From contig NZ_BLXY01000002.1 of the NCBI RefSeq assembly GCF_014193585.1, forward strand, positions 124,001 through 188,000: a stretch of 64,000 nucleotides of DNA, written 5' to 3'. This DNA is from Geomonas paludis (lineage in GTDB: Bacteria; Desulfobacterota; Desulfuromonadia; Geobacterales; Geobacteraceae). The translations under genes and the position numbers were made by a program. The notes under the pieces are model-generated. The model ran no database searches and was not told the origin of the DNA. It was given only the letters and a program-made list of their open reading frames with translations. How positions within the stretch are numbered: the stretch's first letter is position 1; each line of letters opens with the position of its first letter. This document shows positions 10,686 through 49,460 of this stretch, piece after piece.

Positions 10686-11858
10686 TCAGCGCAACGGTTC
10701 CTTGTTTTCCGCAGCAGCACCCTTGTACCCAGTCATCTCCAAGTACCCGGAACCGCCGGGGCTCCCATCCAAACCGCGCACCGCGACTGCCCCCTCCCAA
10801 TAGCGAAACGCAGTAAGCAGCTCCTGTTCTGCTAACCAGGGCACCACCTCCAGGGCAAGCCCCTGTGTCGGAATCCGCAGCCGCCACACCGAGGGGTAGC
10901 GGACGCCGCTGGCGGGGCTCTGCCACCAACTCACCACTTCCAACTGCACCTCATCACGGCTCAGGTTTCTGCTGCTGCCGTCGGCGGCGACCAGGGTCCC
11001 ACCCGAGAAGGGATCGCTGCTGCCGTCGCGCCTGCGCAGCTGGTAGAACATCAGGTCCCTGCCGTCATCGAGGTGCAGGGCGAACCAGTCCCAGCCGACC
11101 TGGTCCGGTTCGAGGGCGCTGGTGCTCCATTCACGGTCTAGCCAGGAGAGCCCGCTCACGGCGAACCGCTCCGTGCCGAGGCGGAGCGTCCCCGAGGTTG
11201 CCAGGCGCGGTATCGAGTAGTAGTACGAGGCGTTTCCCGGCGTCGCCCCCTTGCGGCTCAGCCCCCCTGCCCCATTTAGTACCTCGGGCTTGACGCTGAC
11301 CAGATCGAAGTCGACGGCGAAATCGGGCTCGGCGGCAGTCAGGCGGACACCCCAGGGGCGGGGCGAGGTCTGCAGCGCGGACCAGTCTTCCAGGCGCACC
11401 GCGAGCGGATCCCCGCCGGCCCCGGCCAGCCCCAGCGCGGCCCGGCTGAAGCGCTCGGCGAAGCGATACTTCCTGCCCGCCACATCGGTCACCGCGAAAT
11501 GCGCCATGTAGACCTCGTTGGTCCCCCAGGCCGATGCCCTGGTGACGGCAACGGGAGTAAGCGCGGTCTTGAAAAAGGTGAGCTGGTAGCCGAAACGACG
11601 CCCGTCGGCGGCATGAAGGTTGCCGGTGAAGTACCACCACTCGTTGCGAAAGCCAGGATGCGGTCCGTGGTCGGCGGGAAAGGAGAAGCGGCGCGGCTTG
11701 TCGGCGCGCAGATACCCGGGTGCGGCGGCACCGCCCAGGGTCTGGGAGACGCTGAAGGTCTCCTGGCGCGTGTTACCGGCAGGGCGCGTGGCGGACCACA
11801 AGAACCAGATCAGCAGCAAGGCGCAAGCAGCAGCCGCGCAGATCAGGATCCGTCGCAT
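10686..11858 (-). CDS. AttH/CrtC-like secreted lipocalin-fold protein
   Basis: 390 residues with an N-terminal hydrophobic signal/anchor (about 5-22) and then a two-lipocalin-domain fold of the AttH / carotenoid 1,2-hydratase family. FSFPADHGPHPGFRNEWWYFTG holds the typical NEWWY motif, and WLDREWSTSALEPDQVGWDW is the conserved second-half motif. In AttEFGH-type systems this protein accompanies an ABC transporter, and here the ATG lies one base after the permease stop, with AGGAGG inside the junction. The role is probably periplasmic binding or modification of a hydrophobic cargo; hydratase activity is not implied. Confidence 0.85.
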   Translation of the reverse strand: MRRILICAAAACALLLIWFLWSATRPAGNTRQETFSVSQTLGGAAAPGYLRADKPRRFSFPADHGPHPGFRNEWWYFTGNLHAADGRRFGYQLTFFKTALTPVAVTRASAWGTNEVYMAHFAVTDVAGRKYRFAERFSRAALGLAGAGGDPLAVRLEDWSALQTSPRPWGVRLTAAEPDFAVDFDLVSVKPEVLNGAGGLSRKGATPGNASYYYSIPRLATSGTLRLGTERFAVSGLSWLDREWSTSALEPDQVGWDWFALHLDDGRDLMFYQLRRRDGSSDPFSGGTLVAADGSSRNLSRDEVQLEVVSWWQSPASGVRYPSVWRLRIPTQGLALEVVPWLAEQELLTAFRYWEGAVAVRGLDGSPGGSGYLEMTGYKGAAAENKEPLR

Positions 11859-11859
11859 G

Positions 11860-14394
11860 CTAATCCTCCTCCTTCAGGGCCAAGGCGGGAGAGGTGCGGG
11901 CGATCCTGAGCGACGGATAGATGCCGGCCAGGAACGCTGCCGTCACCGAGAGGAGCAAGGCCTGGCCGAGCTGCGCCGGCGTGATGGCGAGCTGCATGGT
12001 CCAGCCGAAGGAGCGGAGGTTGATCACGTAGATCAAAACCAGCGCCTCGGCGATGCCCAGGGGGAGCGACAGCAGCCCGGCGATGAGCCCGATCAGGACC
12101 GTCTCGCCACAGACGACACCCCAGACCTGCCCCGGTGTCAGCCCGATGGCGCGCAGCACGGCGAGCTCGCGGGCCCGCTCCACCTGCATGGCCATGAGCG
12201 CGGAGAGGATCCCCACGAAGGCGACCAGCATGGTCAGCATGCGCAGCACCCCGGTGATGGCGAAGGTGCGATCGAAGACCTCGACCGTGGCCTGGCGTAA
12301 CTGCGCGTTGGAGACCACCGTCACCTGCTCCCCCCCTACCCTTGCCCGCACCAACTCCAAAAGCCGCGCCAGGTCCAGCCCCGGCCGCGCCGTGAAGGAC
12401 ATGCCGTCCACGCTCTCATCGGCGAAATTGGCGAGGTAACCGGCGCGGCTCATGATGACGATGCCGGTATCGGAGCCGTAGTCGTAGATGACGCCGGCGA
12501 CGGGGAAGCGGCGCTCGCCGCGGCTGGTGCGCAGGGTGACGCTGTCCCCCGGGTGCAGGTGATGCCGGTAACTGTAGGGCTCGGAAACGAGCACGGCTGC
12601 GCCGCTGCGGAATGTGCTCCAGGCGCGGGCGGGATCGCCCTCCTTGAAGGGATAGCGCAGGAAGGTCCGCTCCGGGACCTGCAACGAAAACAGTTCCGTC
12701 CCACCGGCCGCGCCCTCGATGCGGACCCGGCGCGACAGCGTCACCAGGGCCTCCCCCTCGAGCACGGAGAGGCGGCGCACCAGGGCCGGGTCGAGCGGAG
12801 GCCGGTAGCGCCCGCCGCCGCGATCCGCCGAGGTCACGTAGACGTCGGCCTGCAGCCAGTTGGCGAGCCAGTTCTGCACCGTGAGCCGGAACCCTCCCAC
12901 CATGATGCCGACGCCGATCCCTGCCGAGACCGCAACCACCAGCGCCGCCGTCGCCACCCCGGTGCGGGAGAGGGACACCACCACGCCACGGGCGGCCATC
13001 CTGCCCAGCGAACCGAGCACCGTTTCCAGCAGAGGGCGCAGCAGCGCAGAGAGGAGCATGACGGCGGCCGGAACCAGCAGGGTGTAGCCGACGATGACGG
13101 CGAAGAGCCCGAGGAAGCCGCCCACGATGCCGCCACGCTCGGTGAAAAACAGCCCACAGCCGGCGGCGATAAGGACAAAGCCGCCGCAGGTCGCCAGCGG
13201 CAGGAGCCTCCTGCGCCGGGTCTCCACCTGCGAGCGCGACAGCACCGCGCGCGGGGGTGCGCCGGTCGCCTCCAGGGCGGCGGGCATGGTGGCGGCCAGG
13301 GTGGCGGCCACGCCGAGAAGCGCCCCTTTCCAGAGCGCGCCCGGTAGCAGCGGCACCCGGCGCACCTCCATGACGAAGTAGAGGTCGTTGATGGTCCTGG
13401 TAACCAGCCGGGTCAGTTCCGAGCCAAGCAGCGCCCCCGCCACCAGGCCGGCCACGGTGCCGGCTACCCCGATCAGCAGCGCTTCGGCGCAGATCATGGC
13501 GAAGACTTCCCTGCGGCTCACCCCGAGCGCCCGCAGCATCCCGATCAGACGTCGTCTGCGTACCACCGAGAAGGTCATCGTGTTGTAGATGAGGAACATG
13601 CCGACCACGAGGGCGAGCAGGCTCAGGGCCTTCAGGTTGAGCCGGAAGGCGCGGGTCATCTGGTCCAGGGCGCCCGCCCTGGCGCCGGCGGGGACGATGT
13701 CGGCGCCGGGGGGGAGGATGGCCCGCACCTCCCTGAGCACCCTGCCCCCCTCCGCCCCGTCCGGCAGGATCAGGTCGATGCGCGACAGTCGCCCCACCAT
13801 GCCCAGCAGCTCCTGCGCCGTGGCGATGTCGCACACCAGCACCGAGGCAAGCGCCACCCGGCTCACCTGGTCGGGAGGCTCCAGGAACCCTGCCAGCGCC
13901 AGCTGCCGCCTGACACCGGCGCTGTCGGCGGGATAGGTCGCGCCGCGCTCCAGGCGCAGTTCTGCGGCACTCTCCGGGAGCATCAGCACGGTGCCCGGGC
14001 GGGTCATGAGGGTGGTGAGCAGGCCGCGGTCGGCGAAGCGCGAGGAAAAGCTTCTCAAGGGAGGTTCGGCAAAGGGATCGATGCCGATCAGTTGGAAGGT
14101 ACGGCCGGCGAGTTGCAGGTGCCCGGACACCACCGGGGCCGAGCCCCGCACGCGCAGCTCCACGCGCATCCTGCGGTAGATATCCTCGGCAAGGCCGGTC
14201 GGGCCGCCGACGACCTGGTGCGTGGCGCGCCCGGCGACGGTCTCCGCGGCAAGACGAAAGGCACGCTGGGCCGCCTCGTTGGCGTGGTCCACCGCGGTGA
14301 CCACGGCTACCCCGAGCGCGACGCCCAGGACCGCCAGCACCGTGAGCCAGGGGTGGCGCAGCACGTTGCGCATCCCCGCGCGCCACAGGATCAT
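11860..14394 (-). CDS. ABC transporter permease, duplicated FtsX/MacB-type, 844 residues
   Basis: Inner-membrane permease made of two FtsX-like halves. The first half has TM about 17-38, a long extracytoplasmic (MacB periplasmic-core-like) domain to about 250, and three TM with [19 protein letters not shown] at the coupling loop. The second half repeats the plan, ending [20 protein letters not shown], more TM and a C-terminal [17 protein letters not shown]. The start is ATG 14394, overlapping the ATPase stop as ATGA. The same frame stays open much further upstream through the ATPase gene, an artefact of GC-rich codon use. Lol/Att-type exporters move lipoproteins or hydrophobic molecules away from the inner membrane; the exact cargo is unknown. 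Confidence 0.92.
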
Positions 14395-15095
14395 GCCCCT
14401 GCCCCCGGGACGCCGGCGGCATCGACCAGGACGCCGTCCTTGATGCTGAGCACGCGGTCGGCCAGGGAGGCCACCTCGCCGCTGTGGGTCACCAGCACCA
14501 GCGTGGTGCCGGCCGGGCGGAGCAGGCGCTGGAACAGGTCGAGCACCTGGCGCCCGGTCTGGGCATCGAGGTTGCCGGTCGGCTCGTCGGCGAGGACGAG
14601 CTTGGGAGCGTGCACCAGGGCGCGGGCCACGGCGACCCGCTGCTGCTCGCCCCCGGAGAGCCGGTCGGGAAAGGCGCGCCCCCGGTCGGCAAGGCCCACC
14701 GCGTCCAGGAGCTCGGCGGCACGGCGCCGTCCCGCCGGGGTCAGGGTCCCGGAGAGCTCCAGGGGAAGCAGGACGTTCTCCTCGACGGTAAGGGTGGGGA
14801 TCAGGTTGTAGAACTGGAAGACGAAGCCGATGTGGTTGCGGCGAAACAGGGTGCGCTCGCGTTCGGAGAGGCGGGAAAGATCGGAGCCGTCCACTCTCAC
14901 CTCTCCCCGGTCGGGAAGGTCGATGCCGGAGACCAGGTTCAGCAAGGTCGACTTGCCGGAACCGCTGCGCCCGAAAAGGAAGACCCAGGCGCCGGGCTCT
15001 ATGGACAGGGAGGCGTCGCGAAACACGACCCGCTCCCGGTCCCCCTCGTGGAAACTCTTGCCCACCCCCCTCAGTTCGACAATCGGTTCTGCCAT
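14391..15095 (-). CDS. ABC transporter ATPase, LolD/MacB type
   Basis: Cytoplasmic ATPase of 234 residues that powers the downstream FtsX-type permease. Walker [10 protein letters not shown] (about residues 38-46), Q-loop FVFQFYN, signature LSGGEQQR, Walker [13 protein letters not shown], switch His in LVTHSGE. The ATG at 15095 follows AAGGA by six bases; a GTG directly before it is the alternative. The ATPase, permease and AttH-like genes overlap or nearly touch, forming one operon read right to left. The ribosome site lies in a 14-bp sequence duplicated at 15279-15292 on the far side of a repeat element. Confidence 0.94.
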
Positions 15096-15292
15096 CACAT
15101 ATCCTTTTCCGATCAGGCATGATCTTCCGCCACATGGTTCCAGCCCCCTCTCCCTCCGGGAGAGGGCTAGGGTGAGGGCGTTGCCCAGAGCAGATTATCT
15201 GAGCCGGCAAACGCTTTCACCCGCCCGTTGGGCACCCTCTCCCAGAGGGAGAGGGACTAGCGGATGATCGTCGCTAGTCACATATCCTTTTC
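15096..15292. repeat. GC-rich inverted-repeat element flanked by a 14-bp direct repeat
   Basis: CACATATCCTTTTC occurs at 15096-15109 and 15279-15292. Between them, 15144-15255 is an imperfect palindrome with CCCTCTCCC/GGGAGAGGG at each end and inner GGGTGAGGGC and TTTCACCCGCCC segments. A homologous element in the opposite orientation is at 22815-22927. The flanking repeats look like a target duplication and contain the AAAAGGA ribosome site of the ATPase gene. Confidence 0.75.
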
Positions 15293-15311: not shown

Positions 15312-16229
15312 TCAGCTCCCCTGCTTGGCCTGCAAAGCCTCCTGCTGGGCCCGCTCCATTTTCTTGTTGCTCAGGTAGGCGGCCTTGTCGATCTCCTTCA
15401 ACTGGCGCGGGTACTTGGCAGTCATGTCGTACCAGCGGTTCAGGCGCTGCTCGAATCGCTGCCCCTCCGGGGTCTTCAGGGTGTCCAGGTAGGTCTGTAG
15501 GGCCAGGTAGTAGCGCATGGTGTTGCGCTCCACCGCGCCGCGCACCCCGTCGATGTAGGTCTGCTTCCCGTCCTCCCCGACCATGGTGAAGCCCACCTTG
15601 TCCCGCCCCAGCGTGGCGAAGTAGGTCTTGATGGCCATGCGCGCCATGGTGCCGTGGCTGTAGGTGTAGCTGAAGTGCAGGAAAGTGGCCTGTCCCTCCA
15701 GGGGGACCGCCTGCACCCCGATGCGGTGGTCACGGGTGCCGAAAGGCCCCTCCTCGCCCACCAGTGACAGCTCCAGGTAATCGGGGCGGCTGGCCCCGAC
15801 CCGGAAGGCAAGCTTCAGCGGATAGGCGTCGGAGGGGGGCTGAAAGTACTTGCGGCCGCTGTAGAGGGTCAACTGCGTCTGCTGCTTGGTGGTCTTGTAG
15901 ACGCAGGCCTTGATGTTGATGTGCAGGGGGGTGATTTCGCACCACGCCGCGGGAGACTGCAGCGCCTCGCGCACGGTCTCGAAGGGGTGATGGAAGACGC
16001 CGTACATGTCGACCCGCACCGAGTCCTGCCCCTCCGTCGACTCCAAGTAGATGGGGGCGCCGAACTGGTTCTTGTCCAGCTTCCCTTTCAGGGCGGCGTA
16101 CTTGGCAAGAAGGGCGTGTTCCCCGGCGGACTCGCCGTCAGCGGCGCAGGCGAGACCGTAGCAGAAAACGGCGATCAAAAGGACCAAAGCGGCGAGGGTC
16201 GCCCGGGTTATCCTCTGGGTAGCTACCAT
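15312..16229 (-). CDS. Exported protein of unknown function, possibly SRPBCC/START-like
   Basis: 305 residues from ATG 16229, which follows AGGAGGATTTTTCGT; a longer frame to 16283 only adds an Arg-rich stretch. Signal peptide about 5-30 ([20 protein letters not shown], cleavage after AxA). The middle reads [10 protein letters not shown]-type sequence followed by [20 protein letters not shown], similar in flavour to SRPBCC/START ligand-binding folds, though I cannot confirm that. The C-terminus is Lys/Gln-rich ([15 protein letters not shown]). It lies between the AI-2E-family transporter (53 bases upstream) and the exporter operon, all on one strand, so a periplasmic lipid-related role is possible. 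Confidence 0.72.
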
Positions 16230-16282
16230 ACGAAAAATCCTCCTCCGCCGCCCGCCTCTGCAGCCGGGCCAAGGCGCGGGCA

Positions 16283-17347
16283 TCAGGGAATTTCTGCTTC
16301 GTTCGTTGCCTCGGCATCGGCTACGGCATCATCCCACAGCGAGAACAGGACGGCGAAGATGACGGGCCCGACGATGAGACCAAGGAGCCCCAGGCTGACC
16401 ACGCCGCAGATGGCGCCCAGCACCACGGCCAGGGTCGAGATGTCGCTGGAGGCGCCGATGGCCAGGGGGCGGATGGCGTTGTCGGCAATGCCTACGAAGA
16501 TGATGCACCAGGCGGCCAGCAGCCCTGCGGCGAGGTAAGAGCCGTTCAGGGCGAGGACGCCGACCAGCGGCACCCAGACCACCGCGGTGCCCACCACGGG
16601 GACCAGTGCGGCGATGGCCGTGAGCGCCCCGCAGAAGATCGGCGCCGGCACCCCCGCGACCCAGTAGCCGAGCCCGGCGAGCGCCCCCTGGGTGGCGCAG
16701 GTAAGGACCGTACCCACCGTCACCGCCGTGGTGATGGAGCGGACCTGGGAGGCGAAGTGCTGGGCCTTGCGCGGATCGGGGGCCAGTCTGCCGATGAAGG
16801 TGGCAACCGCCCGTTCCCCGTCGCGATAGATGAAGTAAAGGATGAACAGTGCAATGGCAAGGGTGCCGAGAAAGCTGAACATGTTGCGCGCCAGGTCCGC
16901 GGCAAGCCCCAGTACCAGTGTGGAACTGGTGGAGGCGATCTTGCCCCCGAGGCCGGCCAGGTCGATGTCGAACCGGTCCACCAGCGACATGATCTTCTGC
17001 ACCACGGGATAGTGGCCGAAGTTGGTGGTGCCTGTCTTCGCTACCGTCTGCACCAGTTGCACCACCTGCCTGTACCACTCGGGGGCGTTGACCGCCGCGG
17101 TGACCACCAGTGCTGCCACCGGCAGGACGAAGCAGATCGCGACGGCGAACACCATGATTCCGGCCGAGCGGTCGGGATGCTCAGGGTAGCGACGCAGCAC
17201 GCGGTTGTAATGGGGCATGGTGGCAACGCCGATGATGAGTCCCCAGGCCAGCGGCTTCAAGACGGGAGCGGCCAGGATAACCATCACTACGACAACAGCG
17301 GCCGTTATCAAGGCCGCAAGGATGCTGAGATAGAGTTTTCTGTCCAT
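16283..17347 (-). CDS. AI-2E family transporter (PerM/YdiK-like)
   Basis: 354-residue integral membrane protein with about eight hydrophobic helices. N-terminal pair at 8-30 and 32-50 (LAWGLIIGVATMPHYNRVL), a soluble middle region 110-165, then the conserved C-terminal block with YFIYRDGERA and LGLLGLIVGPVIFAVLFSLWDD, which is the family signature GPxxxxxxxxxW. Members have been linked to AI-2 or Na+(Li+)/H+ export, so substrate is not inferred. ATG preceded by AAGGGGAG. Confidence 0.88.
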   Translation of the reverse strand: MDRKLYLSILAALITAAVVVVMVILAAPVLKPLAWGLIIGVATMPHYNRVLRRYPEHPDRSAGIMVFAVAICFVLPVAALVVTAAVNAPEWYRQVVQLVQTVAKTGTTNFGHYPVVQKIMSLVDRFDIDLAGLGGKIASTSSTLVLGLAADLARNMFSFLGTLAIALFILYFIYRDGERAVATFIGRLAPDPRKAQHFASQVRSITTAVTVGTVLTCATQGALAGLGYWVAGVPAPIFCGALTAIAALVPVVGTAVVWVPLVGVLALNGSYLAAGLLAAWCIIFVGIADNAIRPLAIGASSDISTLAVVLGAICGVVSLGLLGLIVGPVIFAVLFSLWDDAVADAEATNEAEIP

Positions 17348-17511: not shown

Positions 17512-17796
17512 TTAACGCGTGGTTTCGATCTTGCGTCCCTTCTCCTCGGGCGCCGCGGTCGGGCGCTGGGTCCCCTCGGGCTGCACCGACTGCTCGGTCT
17601 GGAACGGCAGCCGCTCGCGCCGCTCGTTGCCCAGGGCGGGCGGTTCCTCGACGACTTTCCAGTTCTTGCCGACCGGGACCGAGAGTTCTTTTACCGGTGC
17701 CGGTTGTACCTGGGGCTGCTGTTTGGCAGCGAAGATGGTGCAGGCACTGAGTGACAGCAGAGCGATTACAAGTAGCGTTGAACGTGCGTGTCTCAT
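17512..17796 (-). CDS. Small lipoprotein, unknown
   Basis: 94 residues from ATG 17796 (CAGGAG ribosome site). Lipoprotein signal with lipobox SLSAC (Cys about 19), then a Gln/Pro/Lys/Glu-rich, apparently disordered mature region (AAKQQPQVQPAPVKEL and QPEGTQRPTAAPEEKG). No family recognised. The extended frame to 17898 has no ribosome site. Confidence 0.68.
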   Translation of the reverse strand: MRHARSTLLVIALLSLSACTIFAAKQQPQVQPAPVKELSVPVGKNWKVVEEPPALGNERRERLPFQTEQSVQPEGTQRPTAAPEEKGRKIETTR

Positions 17797-18043
17797 GGCG
17801 TCGACTCCTGAAGGATTTGTTGCCGGTGAGCTGAGTCTGCTTCTGCTGCTGACCGTTCTTACCGCACTCCCCGCCGGTCCTGAGAGTAAGGATAGCAAGA
17901 CGCGGAAATAATTAAAAGTTTTGTTTTGAACGGCTCAGCAACTGCAGCCATAGCAACAACAATTCCTTCTGATCGAACTGCCGTCGAAAACACAACCAAG
18001 GGCTAATTATGGCAAAGAACCGGGCGCGGTCAACCTTGTCGCG

Positions 18044-18745
18044 TCACATGGCCCTGAACTCGGAGAGCGGATAGACCGCCATTCCCGACAGCTCGGGTTT
18101 CAGCGTCGACGCCTCCACCGGCGCATTCAACTGCGGCTCGTCGAAGACGATGCGCACCTCCCCCCCGGCGGCGCTGCGGATCTCGATGGTCTCCGGGAAG
18201 GGGACCCCGTCCAGGCTTTGATACCCCTGGTAGCGCACCTGGTCACCGGACGGGGCGACCTTGCGCTCCAGCATGCCGATCTCGTCGAAGTAGTAGGTGG
18301 TCCCGGCGACCTCCACCTTCTCTTTGAGCGGCCCGGGCAGCGGCAGCGGGGACGGCGCCATCACCCAGCGGAACAGCTGCAGGCTCTTCAGCGAACTCTG
18401 CTGCGGCAATTCCGAGAGCAGCCCGGTGAAGGCGACCTGCTTGGAGGGGATGACGCAGGTGAAACGGTCGTCCTCGCCGAAGGCTTCCAGCATGGTCTGC
18501 CCGAACGGGGACAGGATGAGCAGGTGGTACAGGTCGGGCGCCTGGTAGACCAGGTAGCCCCGGCCTGCGCTGCTGCGCTCTCCCGAGGTGGCCGACAGGC
18601 TCACCGATGACTGCAGCGTGGTGATGCTGCGCCCCGGCACCAGGCCGGTAAGAGGCTTCTTTACGGTGGCGCAGCCGGAAAGGGTCGCGGCGCAGATAAG
18701 CAGCACAATCAGGAGCAATGAACGAAAAGTGTTGTGAGCGTTCAA
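18044..18745 (-). CDS. LolB-like outer-membrane lipoprotein
   Basis: 233 residues. Starts at TTG 18745 after GAGG. Lipoprotein signal with TLSGC (Cys about 25), then a beta-rich mature part resembling LolB/DUF4292: GYLVYQAPDLYHLLILSPFG, FTCVIPSKQVAFTG and a C-terminal VRIVFDEPQLNAPV. LolB receives lipoproteins from LolA and inserts them in the outer membrane; the resemblance is by fold pattern only. It lies 35 bases downstream of the spinster-type transporter on the same strand, placing an envelope lipoprotein beside a lipid transporter and acyltransferase. Confidence 0.68.
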   Translation of the reverse strand: MNAHNTFRSLLLIVLLICAATLSGCATVKKPLTGLVPGRSITTLQSSVSLSATSGERSSAGRGYLVYQAPDLYHLLILSPFGQTMLEAFGEDDRFTCVIPSKQVAFTGLLSELPQQSSLKSLQLFRWVMAPSPLPLPGPLKEKVEVAGTTYYFDEIGMLERKVAPSGDQVRYQGYQSLDGVPFPETIEIRSAAGGEVRIVFDEPQLNAPVEASTLKPELSGMAVYPLSEFRAM

Positions 18746-18780: not shown

Positions 18781-20025
18781 TCAGGGGGCCGGCTCGGCCT
18801 GCGCCATGTCATGGGCGACGAAGCGGCCGCAGACGAAGCAGAAGACGCCGGCCAGGGCCATCACCAGCGGGGTCGACAACAGCGCGTTGCGCAGCCCCCA
18901 CTGGTCGGAGAACCACCCAAGGATGGACGGGGAAATGGCGTCGCCCAGGGCGTGGATGAAGAAGATGTTCACCGCGAAGGCCATGGCGCGCATGCCGGGG
19001 TTGGTAACGTTGATGATGACGGTGTTGAGCGGACCGGTGTTGAGGAACAGGAAGAACTCCGCCATGAAGATCGCCGCCATGCAGGAGGGGACGTCACCGG
19101 CCAGGATGGCCCAGGCGGCGAAAGGGGCGCCGATGAAGAAACCCCACCCCGATACCAGCAGGTATCCCTTGCTGCTCTTCTTCTGCCAGCGGTCGCCCAG
19201 GATGCCCCCCGCCAGTGTGCCGAGGATACCGGCCACCACGGTCACGGCGCCGAACATCAGGTTGGCCTTCTCCACGTTGAGGGCATGGGTGCGGAACAGG
19301 AAGGTGGGGATCCACTGGGCCAGCCCGCCGATGGCGAAGGTCATGGCGGCCATGGCCAGCGTGTTGGTGACGAAGGAGCGGTTGTAGAACAGCTGCAGGT
19401 AGCCGACGAGCCCCTCCCCCTGCCCCGCCGCCGGCTGGTCGTCCGCCATCTGGCGCTCGGGGGTGCGCAGGAACCAGAGCGGCACGGCGACCAGAAGCCC
19501 GGGCAGGCCGACCATCAGGAAGGCCGAGTGCCAGCCGAAACGCTGGCCGAGCACGCCGCCCAAGAGATAGCCCAGGGCGCTGCCGACGGGAATGGCGACG
19601 TAGAACCAGGAGAGGACGCTGCCGCGTTTCTCCTTTTCGAAAAAGTCGGCGATGAGTCCCGGCGAGACGGTGCCGAAGCTGGCCTCCCCTACCCCGACGG
19701 TGGCGCGGGCGGCGAGGAGCGAGCGGTAGCCCGGGGCGAAACCGGCCAGGATGGTGGCGAAGCTCCAGATCACCACGCCGGTGGAGGCGAGCTTGACCCG
19801 GTCCCAGTGGTCCCCCAGCCAGCCGAATACCGGGGCGATCACCATGTAGCTCACCATGAAGGCGCTGCCCAGGAGGCCCAGTTCCGTGTCCGTTATGGAG
19901 AGGTCCGCCTTGATCAGCGGGAAGACGGCAAACAGCACCTGCCGGTCGATGTAGTTCAAGAGGTTCACCGCCAGCAAAAGCCCGAGGGCATAGCGGCGGT
20001 AAGCCAGAGAAACGGGTTCCTTCAT
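18781..20025 (-). CDS. MFS transporter, spinster (SPNS) type
   Basis: 414-residue, 12-helix carrier. The N-terminus YALGLLLAVNLLNYIDRQVL and the loop GWLGDHWDRVKLASTG are hallmarks of the spinster branch; GEASFGTVSPGLIADFFEKEKRG is the conserved helix 4-5 region. Start is ATG 20025 with AAGGAG eight bases before. Mammalian SPNS1 exports lysophospholipids and SPNS2 sphingosine-1-phosphate. The gene follows the ligase-acyltransferase gene by 24 bases, recalling E. coli LplT-Aas, so lysophospholipid transport is a reasonable inference. Confidence 0.88.
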   Translation of the reverse strand: MKEPVSLAYRRYALGLLLAVNLLNYIDRQVLFAVFPLIKADLSITDTELGLLGSAFMVSYMVIAPVFGWLGDHWDRVKLASTGVVIWSFATILAGFAPGYRSLLAARATVGVGEASFGTVSPGLIADFFEKEKRGSVLSWFYVAIPVGSALGYLLGGVLGQRFGWHSAFLMVGLPGLLVAVPLWFLRTPERQMADDQPAAGQGEGLVGYLQLFYNRSFVTNTLAMAAMTFAIGGLAQWIPTFLFRTHALNVEKANLMFGAVTVVAGILGTLAGGILGDRWQKKSSKGYLLVSGWGFFIGAPFAAWAILAGDVPSCMAAIFMAEFFLFLNTGPLNTVIINVTNPGMRAMAFAVNIFFIHALGDAISPSILGWFSDQWGLRNALLSTPLVMALAGVFCFVCGRFVAHDMAQAEPAP

Positions 20026-20049
20026 CCCACACACTCCTTCATCGCAACA

Positions 20050-22530
20050 TCATTGAATTTCAGCCACCGCGGCCTGCGCCCGCGCCACGATCTCGGCCGG
20101 TTCCTCGAACCGGAAGCGGAGCGGTTTGCCGAAGCTGACCGTCACCGTGCCCCGGTTGGGAAGGCCGGTATGTTTAGGCGGGAGGATCTTGTCGGTCCCC
20201 ACGATCTTCACCGGCACGATGGGAATCTCCAGCTCCTTGGCGATGATGCCCAGGCCGAGCTGGAAGTCCTGCATGGCGCCGTCGTGCGAATGCCCCCCCT
20301 CCGGGAAGATGAGGGTGTTGAGCCCGCGGTCGGTCAGTTTCCCCATGTACTTGACGGCAGTGGAGAAGCCGCTGGTCTGCGGCAGCGGGAACAGGTTCAG
20401 GAACAGGGTCCCGTACTGGTAGGCTGCCAGGCGCAGGAAACGGTCCAGGCCGTGGTAGTCGCCGAAGAAGAATTCCTCCCAGGCCGCGGTCGCCGTGCGG
20501 TAGCGGACCTCCCTGGGGAGCGCGAACATCAGCGAGGGCTGGTCGAAGTACCCCAGGTGGTTGCCGATGAAGATCACCGGCCCGTCAAGGTGTTCGACGT
20601 TCTCGCGCCCGCGCACCTCGAGCTTCACGAAGAGCCGGTACAGGGGGTAGTTCAGGAGCGCGTCGCCCAGCATGCGCAGCGCGCGCACCGGGGCCGAGTT
20701 GGTCCAGAAGCGGTAGTGGCCGCGCCGGTGCCCCTTTTCGCGCCGGGCGATGATGCGGCGCACCTCGGCGACCCTGGTCTGGGGCCCGATCTGGGAGTCC
20801 TCGATGTCGAGACGGAACTCCTGCTCCAGGTAGTTGACCAGTTCCAGCCGCCCGATCGAGGTGAGCCCGAGGTCGGCGACCAGCAGGGATTCCTCTTTGA
20901 TTTCAGCCGGGTCGGCACCGGTCACCTTGGCCAGAAGATTAACCAGGTGGTCCTGGGTGGTACCGGCGCCTCCCGCGGCGGCGCCTTGTTTCACCTGCTC
21001 CTTGACCTGGAACTTCTTGATCTTGAGCGTGGTGGTCTTCGGGAACTCGGGTTCGCGCCAGATGGTGCAGCCGGTGATCTGGTGCATGGTGTCCAACTGG
21101 GCGTTGGCCCGGGCCAGGATCTCGTCCGGCTTGGCGCCGCTATCGTCCAGCAAGAGGACCGCGTGCACCTCCTCCCCTGCCCCGCGGTCCAGGCCGATGA
21201 CGCAGGATTCCTTGACGCCGGGAACCTTGTTCAGCACCGCTTCCAGTTCGTCCGGGTAGACGTTGACCCCGCCGCCGGTGACGATCAGCTCCTTCTCGCG
21301 CCCCTTGATGGTGAGCCAGCCATCCGGCCCGATCTCGCCCAGGTCGCCGGTCTTGAACCAGCCGTCGGCGGTGAAGGCGTCCCGGGTCGCCGCCTCGTTC
21401 TGGTAGTACCCCGGGAAGACGTTGTCGCCCCGCACCACCACCTCCTTGCCGTCCAGCCTGAGCTCGACGCCCGGAAGCGGCGGCCCCACCGAGCCCGCCA
21501 CCTGCTTGTCGATGGTGTTGACGCAGAGGACCGGCGAGCACTCGGAAAGCCCGTACCCCTCCAGCACGGTGAAGCCCATGCTGTCCCAGAAGCGGAACAC
21601 GTCCGGGTCGAGCGGAGCCCCGCCCGAGACGAAGACGGTAAAGTGGGCGCCGAATTTCCTCTGCACCGGGAAGAAGAGCTTCTTGCGCGCCGGCTTGGAG
21701 AGCCCCGCCCCGATCCTGGCCAGCGCGGCAAAAACCCCGGTGAGATGCTTCTCGGCCAACTCGCGCTCGATGGTGGTCTTCAAAAGCTGCATCAGGCGCG
21801 GCACGGACATGATGACGTAGACGTCTTCCTCGCCGAGGGCCTCCATGATGGCGGAAGGCTTGAGCGTGCGCGGGTAGATGACGGCGCCGCCGCGGTACAG
21901 CGGCGTGAAGAAGCCACCCATCTGCTCGAACATGTGCGACAGCGGCAGCAGCGAGAGAAAGGAAAACTCCGGGGTGATGATGGGCACCTGCCGGTTGATC
22001 TGCAGGATGTTGGCCACCAGGTTCTTGTGGGTCAGGATCACCCCTTTGGGGTTGCCGGTGGTTCCCGAGGTGTAGATGAGCTGCGCGATGTCGTCCGGCG
22101 CGGGATGCACCACGTCCGGGTACGGTGCTACCTCCTCCAGCAGGTACTTCAGGTCCTCGAGCAGCAGGGAGTTTTCCACCTGGAGCCGCTCCGGCTTGAA
22201 GCGGCTTTGCAGCACCACCTTGGCCTGGGTCAGCTTCAGGATCGATTCGGCGCGGCCGCGGTCGGACATGAAGTCGACCGGAACGGCGATGGCGCCGCGC
22301 ATGATGATGCCCCAGTAGGCAACGCCCCACCAGGACGAGTTGGGACCCCACAAGAGGACGCGGTCGCCGGGCTCGACGCCGTGTCGCGCCAGCAGGGCCG
22401 CCATTTTCAGGGACAGTACCGAAAGCTCGCCATACGAGACAGCGAAACGGCGCACGCCGGTGCGATTCACCAAGGCGGTCTTGTCGCCCCGCGGCGCGAA
22501 ACTATGGAATAGATCTACCAGTGTCCGCAT
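20050..22530 (-). CDS. Fused AMP-forming acyl ligase - carrier - PlsC acyltransferase (Aas-like)
   Basis: 826 residues from ATG 22530 (GGGAG upstream). Domain order: ANL adenylating domain about 1-500 with P-loop YTSGTTGNPKGV (153-164), EGYGLSECSP and WFKTGDLGEIG; acyl-carrier-like domain about 520-600 with the phosphopantetheine site in GLTSIGRLEL (Ser 558); PlsC/LPLAT domain about 640-800 with NHLGYFD (HX4D) and IFPEGGHSHDG. It would activate a fatty acid, load it on its own carrier and transfer it to a lysophospholipid. E. coli Aas has the acyltransferase first and no built-in carrier, so this is a rearranged version. Cytoplasmic face of the inner membrane. Confidence 0.9.
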   Translation of the reverse strand: MRTLVDLFHSFAPRGDKTALVNRTGVRRFAVSYGELSVLSLKMAALLARHGVEPGDRVLLWGPNSSWWGVAYWGIIMRGAIAVPVDFMSDRGRAESILKLTQAKVVLQSRFKPERLQVENSLLLEDLKYLLEEVAPYPDVVHPAPDDIAQLIYTSGTTGNPKGVILTHKNLVANILQINRQVPIITPEFSFLSLLPLSHMFEQMGGFFTPLYRGGAVIYPRTLKPSAIMEALGEEDVYVIMSVPRLMQLLKTTIERELAEKHLTGVFAALARIGAGLSKPARKKLFFPVQRKFGAHFTVFVSGGAPLDPDVFRFWDSMGFTVLEGYGLSECSPVLCVNTIDKQVAGSVGPPLPGVELRLDGKEVVVRGDNVFPGYYQNEAATRDAFTADGWFKTGDLGEIGPDGWLTIKGREKELIVTGGGVNVYPDELEAVLNKVPGVKESCVIGLDRGAGEEVHAVLLLDDSGAKPDEILARANAQLDTMHQITGCTIWREPEFPKTTTLKIKKFQVKEQVKQGAAAGGAGTTQDHLVNLLAKVTGADPAEIKEESLLVADLGLTSIGRLELVNYLEQEFRLDIEDSQIGPQTRVAEVRRIIARREKGHRRGHYRFWTNSAPVRALRMLGDALLNYPLYRLFVKLEVRGRENVEHLDGPVIFIGNHLGYFDQPSLMFALPREVRYRTATAAWEEFFFGDYHGLDRFLRLAAYQYGTLFLNLFPLPQTSGFSTAVKYMGKLTDRGLNTLIFPEGGHSHDGAMQDFQLGLGIIAKELEIPIVPVKIVGTDKILPPKHTGLPNRGTVTVSFGKPLRFRFEEPAEIVARAQAAVAEIQ

Positions 22531-22814
22531 ATCTGACTCCCGTAGGCGGCGCATGTCAGTTGCAGCTTCACGATATACATCTGATTCGAACCAAGAAAGA
22601 CCCGGCGGCACCACCTACTGACACTATTTCATCCGTGTCTTTTCTCCCAAGCAAGCATTGTCACACGCAGGCATCGCTTTGGCAACCAAACAAACGCAAT
22701 GAGCAATCAATGGCCACTTTGTGAGCAACTGCGCCGGGGTGGCGAGTTTAACCGAAGCTGCCGGCAAAAACCAATGCAAAAAAGGAATAAGGGGACGCGC
22801 TGCGACACGATGAA
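22531..22814. other. Intergenic region, no gene seen
   Basis: Gap upstream of the ligase gene. It contains lower-GC sequence, no convincing ORF and no clear promoter match. Confidence 0.4.
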
Positions 22815-22927
22815 CCTCTCCCCCTGGGAGAGGGTGCCCGAAGGGCGGGTGAGGGCTCTGGCGAGCTGCAATTATTTTGACCTTGGCAACGCCCTCACCC
22901 CTGCCCCTCTCCCGAAGGGCGAGGGGG
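22815..22927. repeat. GC-rich inverted-repeat element (same family as 15144-15255)
   Basis: CCTCTCCCC...GGGAGAGGGTGCCC at the left, GCCCTCACCC...CCCCTCTCCC at the right. Aligned in reverse to the 15144-15255 element it shares both outer palindromes and the GGGCGGGTGA / CAACGCCCTCACCC inner segments, differing in the short core. Confidence 0.75.
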
Positions 22928-22937
22928 TGTGGAATAT

Positions 22938-22972
22938 AAAAAAAGCCGCCCCGGTGTGGGAGCGGCTTTTTA
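22938..22972 (-). terminator. Terminator of the MucR gene
   Basis: Minus strand AAAAGCCGC...GCGGCTTTT arms followed by TTTTTT, 25 bases past the stop. Confidence 0.85.
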
Positions 22973-24161: not shown

Positions 24162-25307
24162 ATGAACATCGCAACAACCGCAGCACAGATAGGCCTGGAG
24201 CGTGAGAGCCGGACCGGCGCCGTCACCGTTCCCATCTACCAGACTGCCACATTCCGCCACCCCGGCCTCGGTCAGAGTACCGGGTACGACTACAGCCGCT
24301 CCGGCAACCCGACCCGCCAGGCCCTCGAGGAAGGTCTGGCCCGGCTCGAAGGCGCCAGCCGCGGCTTCGCCTACGCCTCTGGGATGGCCGCCATCACCAG
24401 CCTCATGTTCCTGTTCCAGCAGGGAGACCACCTGATCGTCACCGAAGACCTCTACGGCGGGAGCTACCGGCTCTTCGAGAAGCTGTTCCAGCAGTTCGGC
24501 CTGACCTTCAGTTATGTCGACACCAGCGACGTGGAACAGGTGCGCCAGGCGATCCGCCCCAACACCCGCGCTCTCTTCGTGGAATCGCTCACCAACCCGC
24601 TTTTGAAGGTCGCCGACGTGCGCGGGCTGGCCGAGGTGTGTAAGGCCAACGACATGCTCTGCATCGTCGACAACACCTTCCTGACCCCCTACCTGCTGCG
24701 CTGCCTCGACCTTGGCGCCGACATCACCGTGTACTCCGGCAGCAAGTACCTGGCCGGCCACAACGACGTCGTCTGCGGCCTGGTGGCGGTGAAGGACGCG
24801 GCGCTGGCCGAAAAGGTCTACTTCCACCAGAACGGCGCCGGCGCGGTACTCGGGCCGCAGGATTCCTGGCTCACCATCCGCGGCATCAAGACCCTCGGCC
24901 TGCGCATGGACCGCCAGCAGGAAAACGCCCTGGCGCTGGCGCAGTGGCTCGAGCAGCATCCCAAGGTGGGGCGCGTGTATTACCCCGGCCTCCCCAATCA
25001 CCCGGGGCACGCGCTGATGCAGCACCAGTGCGGCGGCTTCGGCGCCATGATCGCCTTCGAAGTGACCGAACCGGCGCTGGTGAACCAGCTCTTGATGAAG
25101 ACCCAGATCATCTCCTTCGCCGAGAGCCTGGGCGGGGTCGAGAGCCTGATCACCTTCCCCCAGGTGCAGACCCATGCCGACATCGAGCCGGAGAAACTGC
25201 AGCGGCTCGGCATCAACCACCTGCTCTTGCGCCTCTCCGTGGGGATCGAAGACAAGGACGACCTGATCGCCGACCTGGCGCAGGCTTTTGAAGGAGAAGA
25301 CGCATGA
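24162..25307 (+). CDS. metB: Cys/Met-metabolism PLP enzyme, cystathionine gamma-synthase-like
   Basis: 381 residues, cytoplasmic, fold-type I PLP enzyme. YDYSRSGNPTRQALE, ASGMAAI, the Asp of IVDNTF that contacts the pyridine nitrogen, and the PLP lysine in YSGSKYLAGHND are all present. C-terminal SLGGVESLITFP is family-wide. Members include cystathionine gamma-synthase, gamma-lyase and O-acetylhomoserine sulfhydrylases. SAM-riboswitch control argues for biosynthesis (synthase) over catabolism. ATG 24162 follows GGAGG by five bases. Its TGA overlaps the next ATG, so it is coupled to the second enzyme as in B. subtilis metI-metC. Exact reaction needs alignment. Confidence 0.85.
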   Translation: MNIATTAAQIGLERESRTGAVTVPIYQTATFRHPGLGQSTGYDYSRSGNPTRQALEEGLARLEGASRGFAYASGMAAITSLMFLFQQGDHLIVTEDLYGGSYRLFEKLFQQFGLTFSYVDTSDVEQVRQAIRPNTRALFVESLTNPLLKVADVRGLAEVCKANDMLCIVDNTFLTPYLLRCLDLGADITVYSGSKYLAGHNDVVCGLVAVKDAALAEKVYFHQNGAGAVLGPQDSWLTIRGIKTLGLRMDRQQENALALAQWLEQHPKVGRVYYPGLPNHPGHALMQHQCGGFGAMIAFEVTEPALVNQLLMKTQIISFAESLGGVESLITFPQVQTHADIEPEKLQRLGINHLLLRLSVGIEDKDDLIADLAQAFEGEDA

Positions 25308-26440
25308 AATTCGCCACCGAACTGATCCACGGCCTGGACCCGATCGACGCCCAGCACGGCTCCGTCAGCCACCCCATCTACCTCTCCTCGACCTTTGCGC
25401 AGCGCTCCATCGACAGCTTCGGGCGCTACGACTACGCCCGCTCCGGCAATCCGACCCGCGAGGCGCTGGAAGAGGCGGTAGCCGGGCTGGAAAAGGGAGC
25501 CGTCGGCCTCGCCTTCGCCTCGGGAATCGCGGCCACCGCCTCCACCCTGCTCCTGTTCCGGCCGGGCGACCACCTGGTGGTGTGCGAGGACGTCTATGGC
25601 GGCACCTTCCGGCTGCTCACCACCCTGTTCAAGGGGTGGGGGCTGGAGGCCACCTTCGTCGATGCAACCGACAACGACGCCATTGCCGCGGCCATCCGTC
25701 CGGAGACCAGGGCGCTCTACCTGGAGACCCCGTCCAACCCGCTGATCAAGATCACCGATCTCTCCGCCGCGGTGGCGCTGGCCAAGGAGCACGCGATCCT
25801 CACCATCGTTGACAACACCTTCATGACCCCGTACCTGCAGCGGCCCTTGGAGCTTGGCTGCGATATCGTCGTGCACAGCGGGACCAAGTTCCTCAACGGC
25901 CACTCCGATGTCATCTGCGGGTTCGCGGTGGCGAAGGATGCCGAGTTGGGGCAGCGGCTGCGTTTCATCCAGAATGCCTTCGGCGCCGTGCTCGGTCCGC
26001 AGGACTGCTGGCTGGTGCTGCGCGGGCTGAAAACCCTCAAGGTACGCATGGAGGAACACCAGGCAAGTGCGCGGAAAATAGTGGCATGGCTTGGCGAGCA
26101 GAAAGAGGTGCGGCAGGTTTACTATCCCGGCCTCCCCGACCATCCCGGTTACGAGATCCACAACCGCCAGGCAAGCGGCCCCGGTGGTGTGCTCTCCTTC
26201 GAGCTTGCCAGCTACGACACCACCAAGCGGCTGTTGGAAGGGGTGAAGCTGGCGGCCTTTGCCGTGAGCCTCGGGGGCGTCGAGAGCATCCTCTCCTACC
26301 CCGCCAAGATGTCGCACGCGGCGATGCCGCCGGCCGAACGCGAGGCGCGCGGGATCAAGGATACGCTGGTGCGTCTGTCGGTGGGTCTCGAGGACCCCGA
26401 TGACCTGATTGCCGACATGGCAAGGTTCCTCAACGTTTAA
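25304..26440 (+). CDS. metC: Cys/Met-metabolism PLP enzyme, cystathionine beta-lyase-like
   Basis: 378-residue paralogue of the preceding enzyme, start overlapping it as ATGA. Conserved: YDYARSGNPTREALEE, ASGIAATAS, IVDNTFMTPYLQ, PLP lysine in HSGTKFLNGHSD, SLGGVESILSYP. As the second gene of a SAM-regulated pair it most likely cleaves cystathionine to homocysteine, completing transsulfuration, but gamma-lyase cannot be excluded. The two genes may descend from a duplication. No intergenic signal separates them. Confidence 0.85.
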   Translation: MKFATELIHGLDPIDAQHGSVSHPIYLSSTFAQRSIDSFGRYDYARSGNPTREALEEAVAGLEKGAVGLAFASGIAATASTLLLFRPGDHLVVCEDVYGGTFRLLTTLFKGWGLEATFVDATDNDAIAAAIRPETRALYLETPSNPLIKITDLSAAVALAKEHAILTIVDNTFMTPYLQRPLELGCDIVVHSGTKFLNGHSDVICGFAVAKDAELGQRLRFIQNAFGAVLGPQDCWLVLRGLKTLKVRMEEHQASARKIVAWLGEQKEVRQVYYPGLPDHPGYEIHNRQASGPGGVLSFELASYDTTKRLLEGVKLAAFAVSLGGVESILSYPAKMSHAAMPPAEREARGIKDTLVRLSVGLEDPDDLIADMARFLNV

Positions 26441-28139: not shown

Positions 28140-28211
28140 CCCTCACCCTGACCCTCTCCCAGAGGGAGAGGGGACTGTGTAGGGTGGACCCTCTCCAGGC
28201 GGAGAGAGGAC
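28140..28211. repeat. Degraded copy of the GAGAGGG-type element
   Basis: CCCTCACCCTGACCCTCTCCC then AGAGGGAGAGGGG, a second CCCTCTCC/GGAGAGAGG stem follows. Lies between the J-LRR gene and yaiI. Confidence 0.6.
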
Positions 28212-39710: not shown

Positions 39711-39768
39711 CACCCTCTCCCTCTGGGAGAGGGCTGTCCCCTCCCCCACCGGAAGGGATACCTTTCCC
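39711..39768. repeat. GAGAGGG-type repeat fragment
   Basis: CACCCTCTCCCTCTGGGAGAGGG stem plus a decayed right part. Nothing else is seen between 39678 and 39948. Confidence 0.55.
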
Positions 39769-49349: not shown

Positions 49350-49460
49350 TTCCCTCACCCCGGCCCTCTCCCAAGGGGAGAGGGGCATGGACAGAACAGC
49401 GTGACCGGATGTTGTACCCTCGCCCTCCGGGAGAGGGTGGCCGCAGGCCGGGTGAGGGAA
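49350..49460. repeat. 111-bp element with 11-bp terminal inverted repeats
   Basis: Ends TTCCCTCACCC (49350-49360) and GGGTGAGGGAA (49450-49460) are exact complements. Inside are CCCTCTCCC...GGGAGAGGG stems like those at 15144-15255, but arranged the other way round. Confidence 0.85.

Follow-up and report, generated by a model that had tools for sequence, protein, structure and literature searches.

A conserved pair of genes for a spinster-type transporter and a ligase-ACP-acyltransferase in Geomonas paludis: a candidate lysophospholipid salvage unit

Genes and features of the locus

The window, which is the whole stretch of 64,000 nucleotides of Geomonas paludis DNA that was analysed, carries on its minus strand a gene (20050..22530) for an 826-residue protein (P0001), which translation, Pfam and alignment identified as an acyl-AMP ligase-ACP-PlsC acyltransferase. 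Its AMP-binding (ligase) domain (residues 11-376, 21403..22500; Pfam 243.8 bits) contains the motif YTSGTTGNPKG at residues 153-163 and is followed by an AMP-binding_C subdomain (residues 428-501, 21028..21249) that scored marginally below the Pfam cut-off, by an acyl carrier (PP-binding) domain (residues 528-581, 20788..20949; 30.4 bits) and by an Acyltransferase/PlsC domain (residues 637-776, 20203..20622; 52.8 bits), all on the minus strand. In an alignment of 26 enzyme homologues, the phosphopantetheine Ser558 of the ACP (20857-20859, minus strand), His658 and Asp663 of the HX4D motif and the FPEG motif at residues 742-745 were all invariant, and so were Lys503 and Lys506, just past the AMP-binding_C subdomain. 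The original prediction that one protein joins a ligase, its own ACP and a PlsC domain in the order opposite to E. coli Aas, with Ser 558 and the HX4D His in place, was borne out; in E. coli Aas (L120), the PlsC domain is N-terminal. Because orthologues were found in 42 of the 48 family genomes, the enzyme gene is not a chance open reading frame.

Against Aas models with cut-offs of 1221-1349 bits, the enzyme scored 156-181 bits. It combines ligase and PlsC domains, both with catalytic motifs, in one protein as Aas does, but it lacks the N-terminal PlsC domain without fused ACP that is typical of Aas, its order being ligase-ACP-PlsC. Sequence comparison showed that its PlsC motif II does not have the Arg present in E. 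coli PlsC and is Aas-like there, which is weak evidence, and its ligase resembles general acyl-CoA synthetases. We rejected the idea that this architecture is unique to the window's lineage, since several other phyla have it at ~30% identity: Pfam detected it in MAGs named Chloroflexi, Nitrospirota and Phycisphaerae, and it also occurs in Omnitrophota MAGs (by a local profile) and in Fusobacteriota records. The earlier term 'rearranged Aas' is correct as to the reversed order, but the enzyme is better called a separate architecture.

The enzyme gene is followed after 15 bp by a minus-strand gene (18781..20034) for a 417-residue SPNS-type MFS transporter (P0002), assigned by solved-structure matches and alignment. 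The best solved relatives, similar over the full length, were human SPNS2 (E 7e-55) and SPNS1 (7e-55), matched over residues 6-414 and 17-379, and the third-ranked match was a bacterial MFS structure at 1e-28. These matches confirm the predicted SPNS-type neighbour; the transporter is not an LplT-type MFS carrier. Residues D30, R31, R110 and E117 were invariant in an alignment of 18 homologues and match D41, R42, R122 and E129 of HnSpns, in which the TM1 Asp-Arg and TM4 Arg/Glu residues are proton switches (PMC9440201). SPNS1 is a lysosomal LPC/LPE exporter (PMC13192786).

A further 35 bp downstream on the minus strand (18044..18745) lies a gene for a LolB-like lipoprotein (P0003; Pfam LolB 41.5 bits, cut-off 23.7), whose LSGC lipobox was recognized by eye. 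A LolB-like lipoprotein thus follows the transporter as predicted, but its membership of the unit is uncertain: the gene accompanies the enzyme-SPNS pair only within the window's genus, and in one genus member (L041) ACP and transferase-like genes separate the transporter from it. We therefore set it aside as a core part, and its place in the unit is doubtful. Next comes a gene for a small lipoprotein of family K6 (17512..17796, minus strand; start at Met35 of P0004), recognized by neighbourhood clustering, and then, on the same strand, genes for an AI-2E family protein, an unassigned protein, an ABC ATPase, an FtsX permease and a CrtC/Lipocalin_9 protein. Consensus matches alone placed three minus-strand signals in the region: a promoter-like site ahead of the enzyme gene (22657..22685), a terminator-like stem-loop separating that gene from a ROS/MucR-type regulator gene (22940..22971) and a promoter-like site before the gene for the K6 lipoprotein (18006..18033), which is possibly the start of a second transcription unit.

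Conservation of the pair and its linkage to MlaYZ

Conservation of the pair in relatives had been set beforehand as a test on which the original prediction could fail, and the prediction passed it. The two genes are adjacent throughout the window's genus (19 of 19 genomes) and in many other genera, codirectional and with the enzyme first. The 277 genomes of the class gave 107 enzyme matches; a same-strand downstream transporter lay within 2.5 kb in 41 of them and within 15 kb in a further 11, and these counts are lower bounds because contig ends cut some loci; the other 55 matches had no linked transporter. Open reading frames of the neighbourhoods were called mechanically, and some neighbours were possibly misjudged. 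Identity to the window proteins was 64-100% for linked enzymes and 72-100% for linked transporters. In addition, co-occurrence at the level of the order was non-random, with both enzyme and transporter in 86 of 141 genomes (Fisher p 1.6e-6, kinship ignored). These results collectively demonstrate that the pair is no local accident.

In a tree of 62 enzymes, the window enzyme fell in the linked group. Of the 26 loci at which the enzyme has no linked neighbours, 23 formed one clade (SH-aLRT 98) with neither SPNS nor MlaYZ nearby. Together with the 55 unlinked matches, this clade indicates that the enzyme also has another setting. Distant ligase-ACP-PlsC loci likewise had no SPNS and no MlaYZ nearby in a neighbourhood scan. 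Two other loci in that scan gave merely weak general MFS scores.

Neighbourhood clustering of ~80 loci, with MlaA identified by Pfam, revealed that a gene for an alpha/beta-hydrolase and then one for an MlaA lipoprotein recur beside the pair. They either follow the transporter, in many cases with the K6 lipoprotein in between, or immediately precede the enzyme, and in relatives from other genera they are usually next to the pair. The relatives' hydrolase begins with a signal-peptide-like stretch, its Ser-Asp-His triad is conserved in the family, and it is 36-38% identical to a P. aeruginosa hydrolase that precedes a VacJ lipoprotein. Residues 187, 388 and 415 of this P. aeruginosa hydrolase are Ser, Asp and His, and the published active site of MlaY is S187/D388/H415 (PMC11977310). 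By this identity and the matching triad, the relatives' hydrolase-MlaA pair is homologous to MlaY-MlaZ. The MlaYZ system of P. aeruginosa reportedly takes misplaced outer-leaflet phospholipid and degrades it (PMC11131202), and phospholipid hydrolysis with an MlaA partner is on record for P. aeruginosa alone (PMC11131202, PMC11977310). A search of solved structures returned no significant match for the relatives' hydrolase, and NCBIfam holds no model for it.

Frequent gene orders in relatives were SPNS-K6-MlaY-MlaZ, with the K6 family between SPNS and MlaY, and MlaY-MlaZ-enzyme-SPNS. An MlaY-like hydrolase, MlaA or both stood in the same stretch at 26 of 62 enzyme loci, and the linkage to the pair was spread over several families. 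G. paludis itself has a single MlaY-MlaZ pair (G000:C2:337926-340015), ~190 kb from the enzyme-SPNS pair, and its hydrolase keeps the triad. Both there and in the relatives, a secreted alpha/beta-hydrolase with an S187/D388/H415-type triad lies directly upstream of an MlaA lipoprotein.

A second association was found at 10 of 34 scanned loci and at L250 (11 genomes), where a diverged SPNS paralogue, unlinked to the enzyme, is followed by a stand-alone PlsC, the two genes overlapping or lying at most 50 bp apart. The PlsC profile used for the scan was built partly from three stand-alone proteins that it detected, and Pfam independently confirmed four. In the phylum's other classes, no SPNS homologue except that of L250 had an acyltransferase, MlaA or MlaY neighbour. 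That one carrier family occurs beside two different acyltransferase architectures speaks for a substrate in common.

We also found other phospholipid systems in the genome and the family. A canonical fused LplT-PlsC-ligase (Aas) of 1126 residues is present at L038, as in 29 of 48 family genomes including this one, and is 28% identical to the window enzyme over 298 residues. We therefore rejected the window unit as a replacement of LplT-Aas; it would be a second, additional recycler. MlaC was lacking in G. paludis and in 27 of 48 genomes across the family, MlaA was found in 37 of 48, and PldA was absent from the G. paludis genome and from 47 of 48 in all. In Veillonella, lipid traffic without MlaC is possible via an elongated MlaD (PMC10665443).

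A candidate route for lysophospholipid salvage

The enzyme and the SPNS carrier probably form a lysophospholipid salvage unit that would act like LplT-Aas, be built from unrelated or rearranged parts and be supplied by MlaYZ. We infer its substrates, the direction of transport, the loading of the ACP in cis and the cooperation with MlaYZ in G. paludis as follows. At the outer membrane, an MlaA-family lipoprotein of the MlaZ type would take misplaced phospholipid and deliver it to MlaY, a secreted serine hydrolase, for cleavage into lysophospholipid and fatty acid. The SPNS carrier, probably proton-coupled, would move inner-membrane lysophospholipid to the cytoplasmic leaflet. The ligase domain would then activate the free fatty acid as acyl-AMP and load the fused ACP, and the PlsC domain would transfer the fatty acid to the lysophospholipid, so that one protein would re-use both breakdown products. 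The fused ACP would make the reaction independent of the cytoplasmic ACP pool.

On gene content, the case for such a putative unit is strong. Besides the conserved pair, the flip-and-reacylate function first proposed gains two independent supports, namely the MlaYZ linkage and the second type of SPNS-PlsC operon, but the unit is not the genome's only recycler. The linkage of the pair to MlaYZ in relatives suggests the coupling of the two systems. Salvage is further favoured by LPC/LPE export by SPNS1, by the retained HnSpns proton-switch residues, by the Aas-like PlsC motif II and by the absence of MlaC from this genome and of PldA from nearly all the family. Against it stand the canonical fused LplT-Aas in the same genome, the distance of the genome's own MlaYZ from the pair, the 55 unlinked enzymes with the 23-member clade without SPNS or MlaYZ, the SPNS homologues in other classes that lack such neighbours, and the presence of a drug transporter among the bacterial Spns proteins examined to date.

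It is unlikely that the enzyme serves fatty-acid salvage and phosphatidic-acid synthesis, whereby the ligase would activate exogenous or recycled fatty acid, PlsC would acylate lysophosphatidate and SPNS would carry another lipid or a fatty acid. Lysophosphatidate is a common acceptor of PlsC domains, the likeness of the ligase to general acyl-CoA synthetases would fit, and the enzyme often occurs without SPNS; however, its linkage to SPNS and MlaYZ argues against this reading, and the motif II without the E. coli PlsC Arg does so weakly. Quite improbable, too, is the export by SPNS of a special lipid or amphiphile that would be made with the help of the enzyme and be carried outward by the window's LolB-like, ABC/FtsX and lipocalin proteins. 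SPNS2 is a sphingosine-1-phosphate exporter, the LolB-like, ABC, FtsX and CrtC/Lipocalin_9 genes do lie downstream on the same strand, and three genus members have, downstream of SPNS, genes that by eye look like those of lipid biosynthesis (ACP, LpxL-like acyltransferase, radical-SAM, thioesterase). These downstream genes are genus-limited, whereas the MlaYZ linkage extends across several families, and the promoter-like site before the K6 gene suggests a separate unit. A generic envelope-stress island, with neighbours brought together by shared regulation and SPNS transporting drugs or metabolites with no connection to the enzyme, is very unlikely: MsSpns handles drugs and the enzyme-SPNS stretch of relatives holds varied envelope genes (OmpA, DUF748, BrkB, MacAB-like), but the pair persists while other genes change, and separate SPNS-PlsC operons have overlapping or abutting genes.

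Extending the salvage reading to the order, we tentatively propose that many of its species without MlaC or PldA might keep outer-membrane asymmetry by break-and-repair, in which MlaYZ would cut, the spinster would import and the ligase-ACP-acyltransferase would rejoin. If so, this would be the first bacterial spinster with a physiological role in lysophospholipid import, and the unit would supply the recycling half that the MlaYZ pathway has been missing. Outside E. coli, little is known of the way in which breakdown products of outer-membrane phospholipid get back to the inner membrane. There is no agreement either on what bacterial spinster proteins naturally carry; the members examined to date include a drug transporter that behaves both like an efflux and like an uptake carrier. 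In two separate arrangements of genes, a spinster carrier is here tied to a lysolipid-type acyltransferase, and many relatives add a link with a known outer-membrane phospholipid hydrolase; through the operon, both the natural substrate of bacterial spinsters and the return route become directly testable. Literature searches, which left most subscription papers outside their scope, returned no paper on a ligase-ACP-PlsC fusion or a bacterial spinster-acyltransferase operon, no account of the combination with MlaYZ, and nothing on the subject for Geobacter and spinster.

Comparison with known systems

The novelty lies in the combination of SPNS with a ligase-ACP-PlsC enzyme, linked to MlaYZ in relatives; the enzyme architecture itself occurs elsewhere. 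With LplT-Aas of E. coli, and with the LplT-PlsC-ligase fusions, the window unit shares the plan of an MFS carrier with a ligase/PlsC-type enzyme and the proposed task of lysophospholipid flip and reacylation, but its carrier is of the SPNS type and its enzyme is a ligase-ACP-PlsC protein with its own ACP. MlaYZ of P. aeruginosa (PA3238-PA3239) is homologous to the relatives' hydrolase-MlaA pair and has the same Ser-Asp-His triad; its neighbours are pirin, patatin and lauroyl acyltransferase genes, whereas in the window's order SPNS and the ligase-ACP-PlsC enzyme take their place. Human SPNS1 and SPNS2 and bacterial HnSpns and MsSpns have full-length homology and the proton-switch residues in common with the window transporter. 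Unlike them, the window transporter lies in an operon with an acyltransferase and its substrate is putative; the operon would be a bacterial parallel to the SPNS1-dependent salvage of lysophospholipids in lysosomes.

Phospholipid-recycling genes in the genome and family

The same genome also carries a canonical LplT-PlsC-ligase fusion of 1126 aa (L038, a separate locus of this genome, 5894-9274, minus strand). In addition, MlaA was present without MlaC, a combination also found in many of the family members, and PldA was nearly absent across the family.

Neighbours of the enzyme and transporter in relatives

In one family of the order (L081-L105), an OprF/OmpA protein and two small, unassigned, exported-looking families (K5 and K8) were recurrently found 5' of the ligase-ACP-PlsC enzyme. 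In three members of the genus (L041, L042 and L079), inspection by eye showed what resembles a lipid/polyketide-like biosynthetic cluster between or after SPNS, with ACP, LpxL-like acyltransferase, radical-SAM, thioesterase and SDR genes. The LolB-like gene of the window may be a remnant of such a cluster.

Palindromic repeats and surrounding genes

The palindrome CCTCTCCC-NNN-GGGAGAGGG occurs at eight sites in the window (15146-15255, 22814-22925, 28152-28172, 39713-39733 and 49364-49437), far more than expected by chance. Three pairs with 50-90 bp spacing account for six of the eight sites, and two pairs flank the block that bears the operon. Elsewhere, two adjoining paralogous genes (24162-26440, plus strand; 381 and 378 aa) look like PLP-dependent Cys/Met metabolism enzymes.

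Downstream of the operon on the same strand, a 323-aa protein (15312-16283, minus strand) had no Pfam or NCBIfam matches and is kept across the genus, adjoining AI-2E and ABC/FtsX genes; from its sequence, we would guess at a secreted protein of a lipid-binding type. The tightly packed ABC ATPase, FtsX permease and CrtC/Lipocalin_9 genes (10686-15098, minus strand) resemble a lipophile export module.
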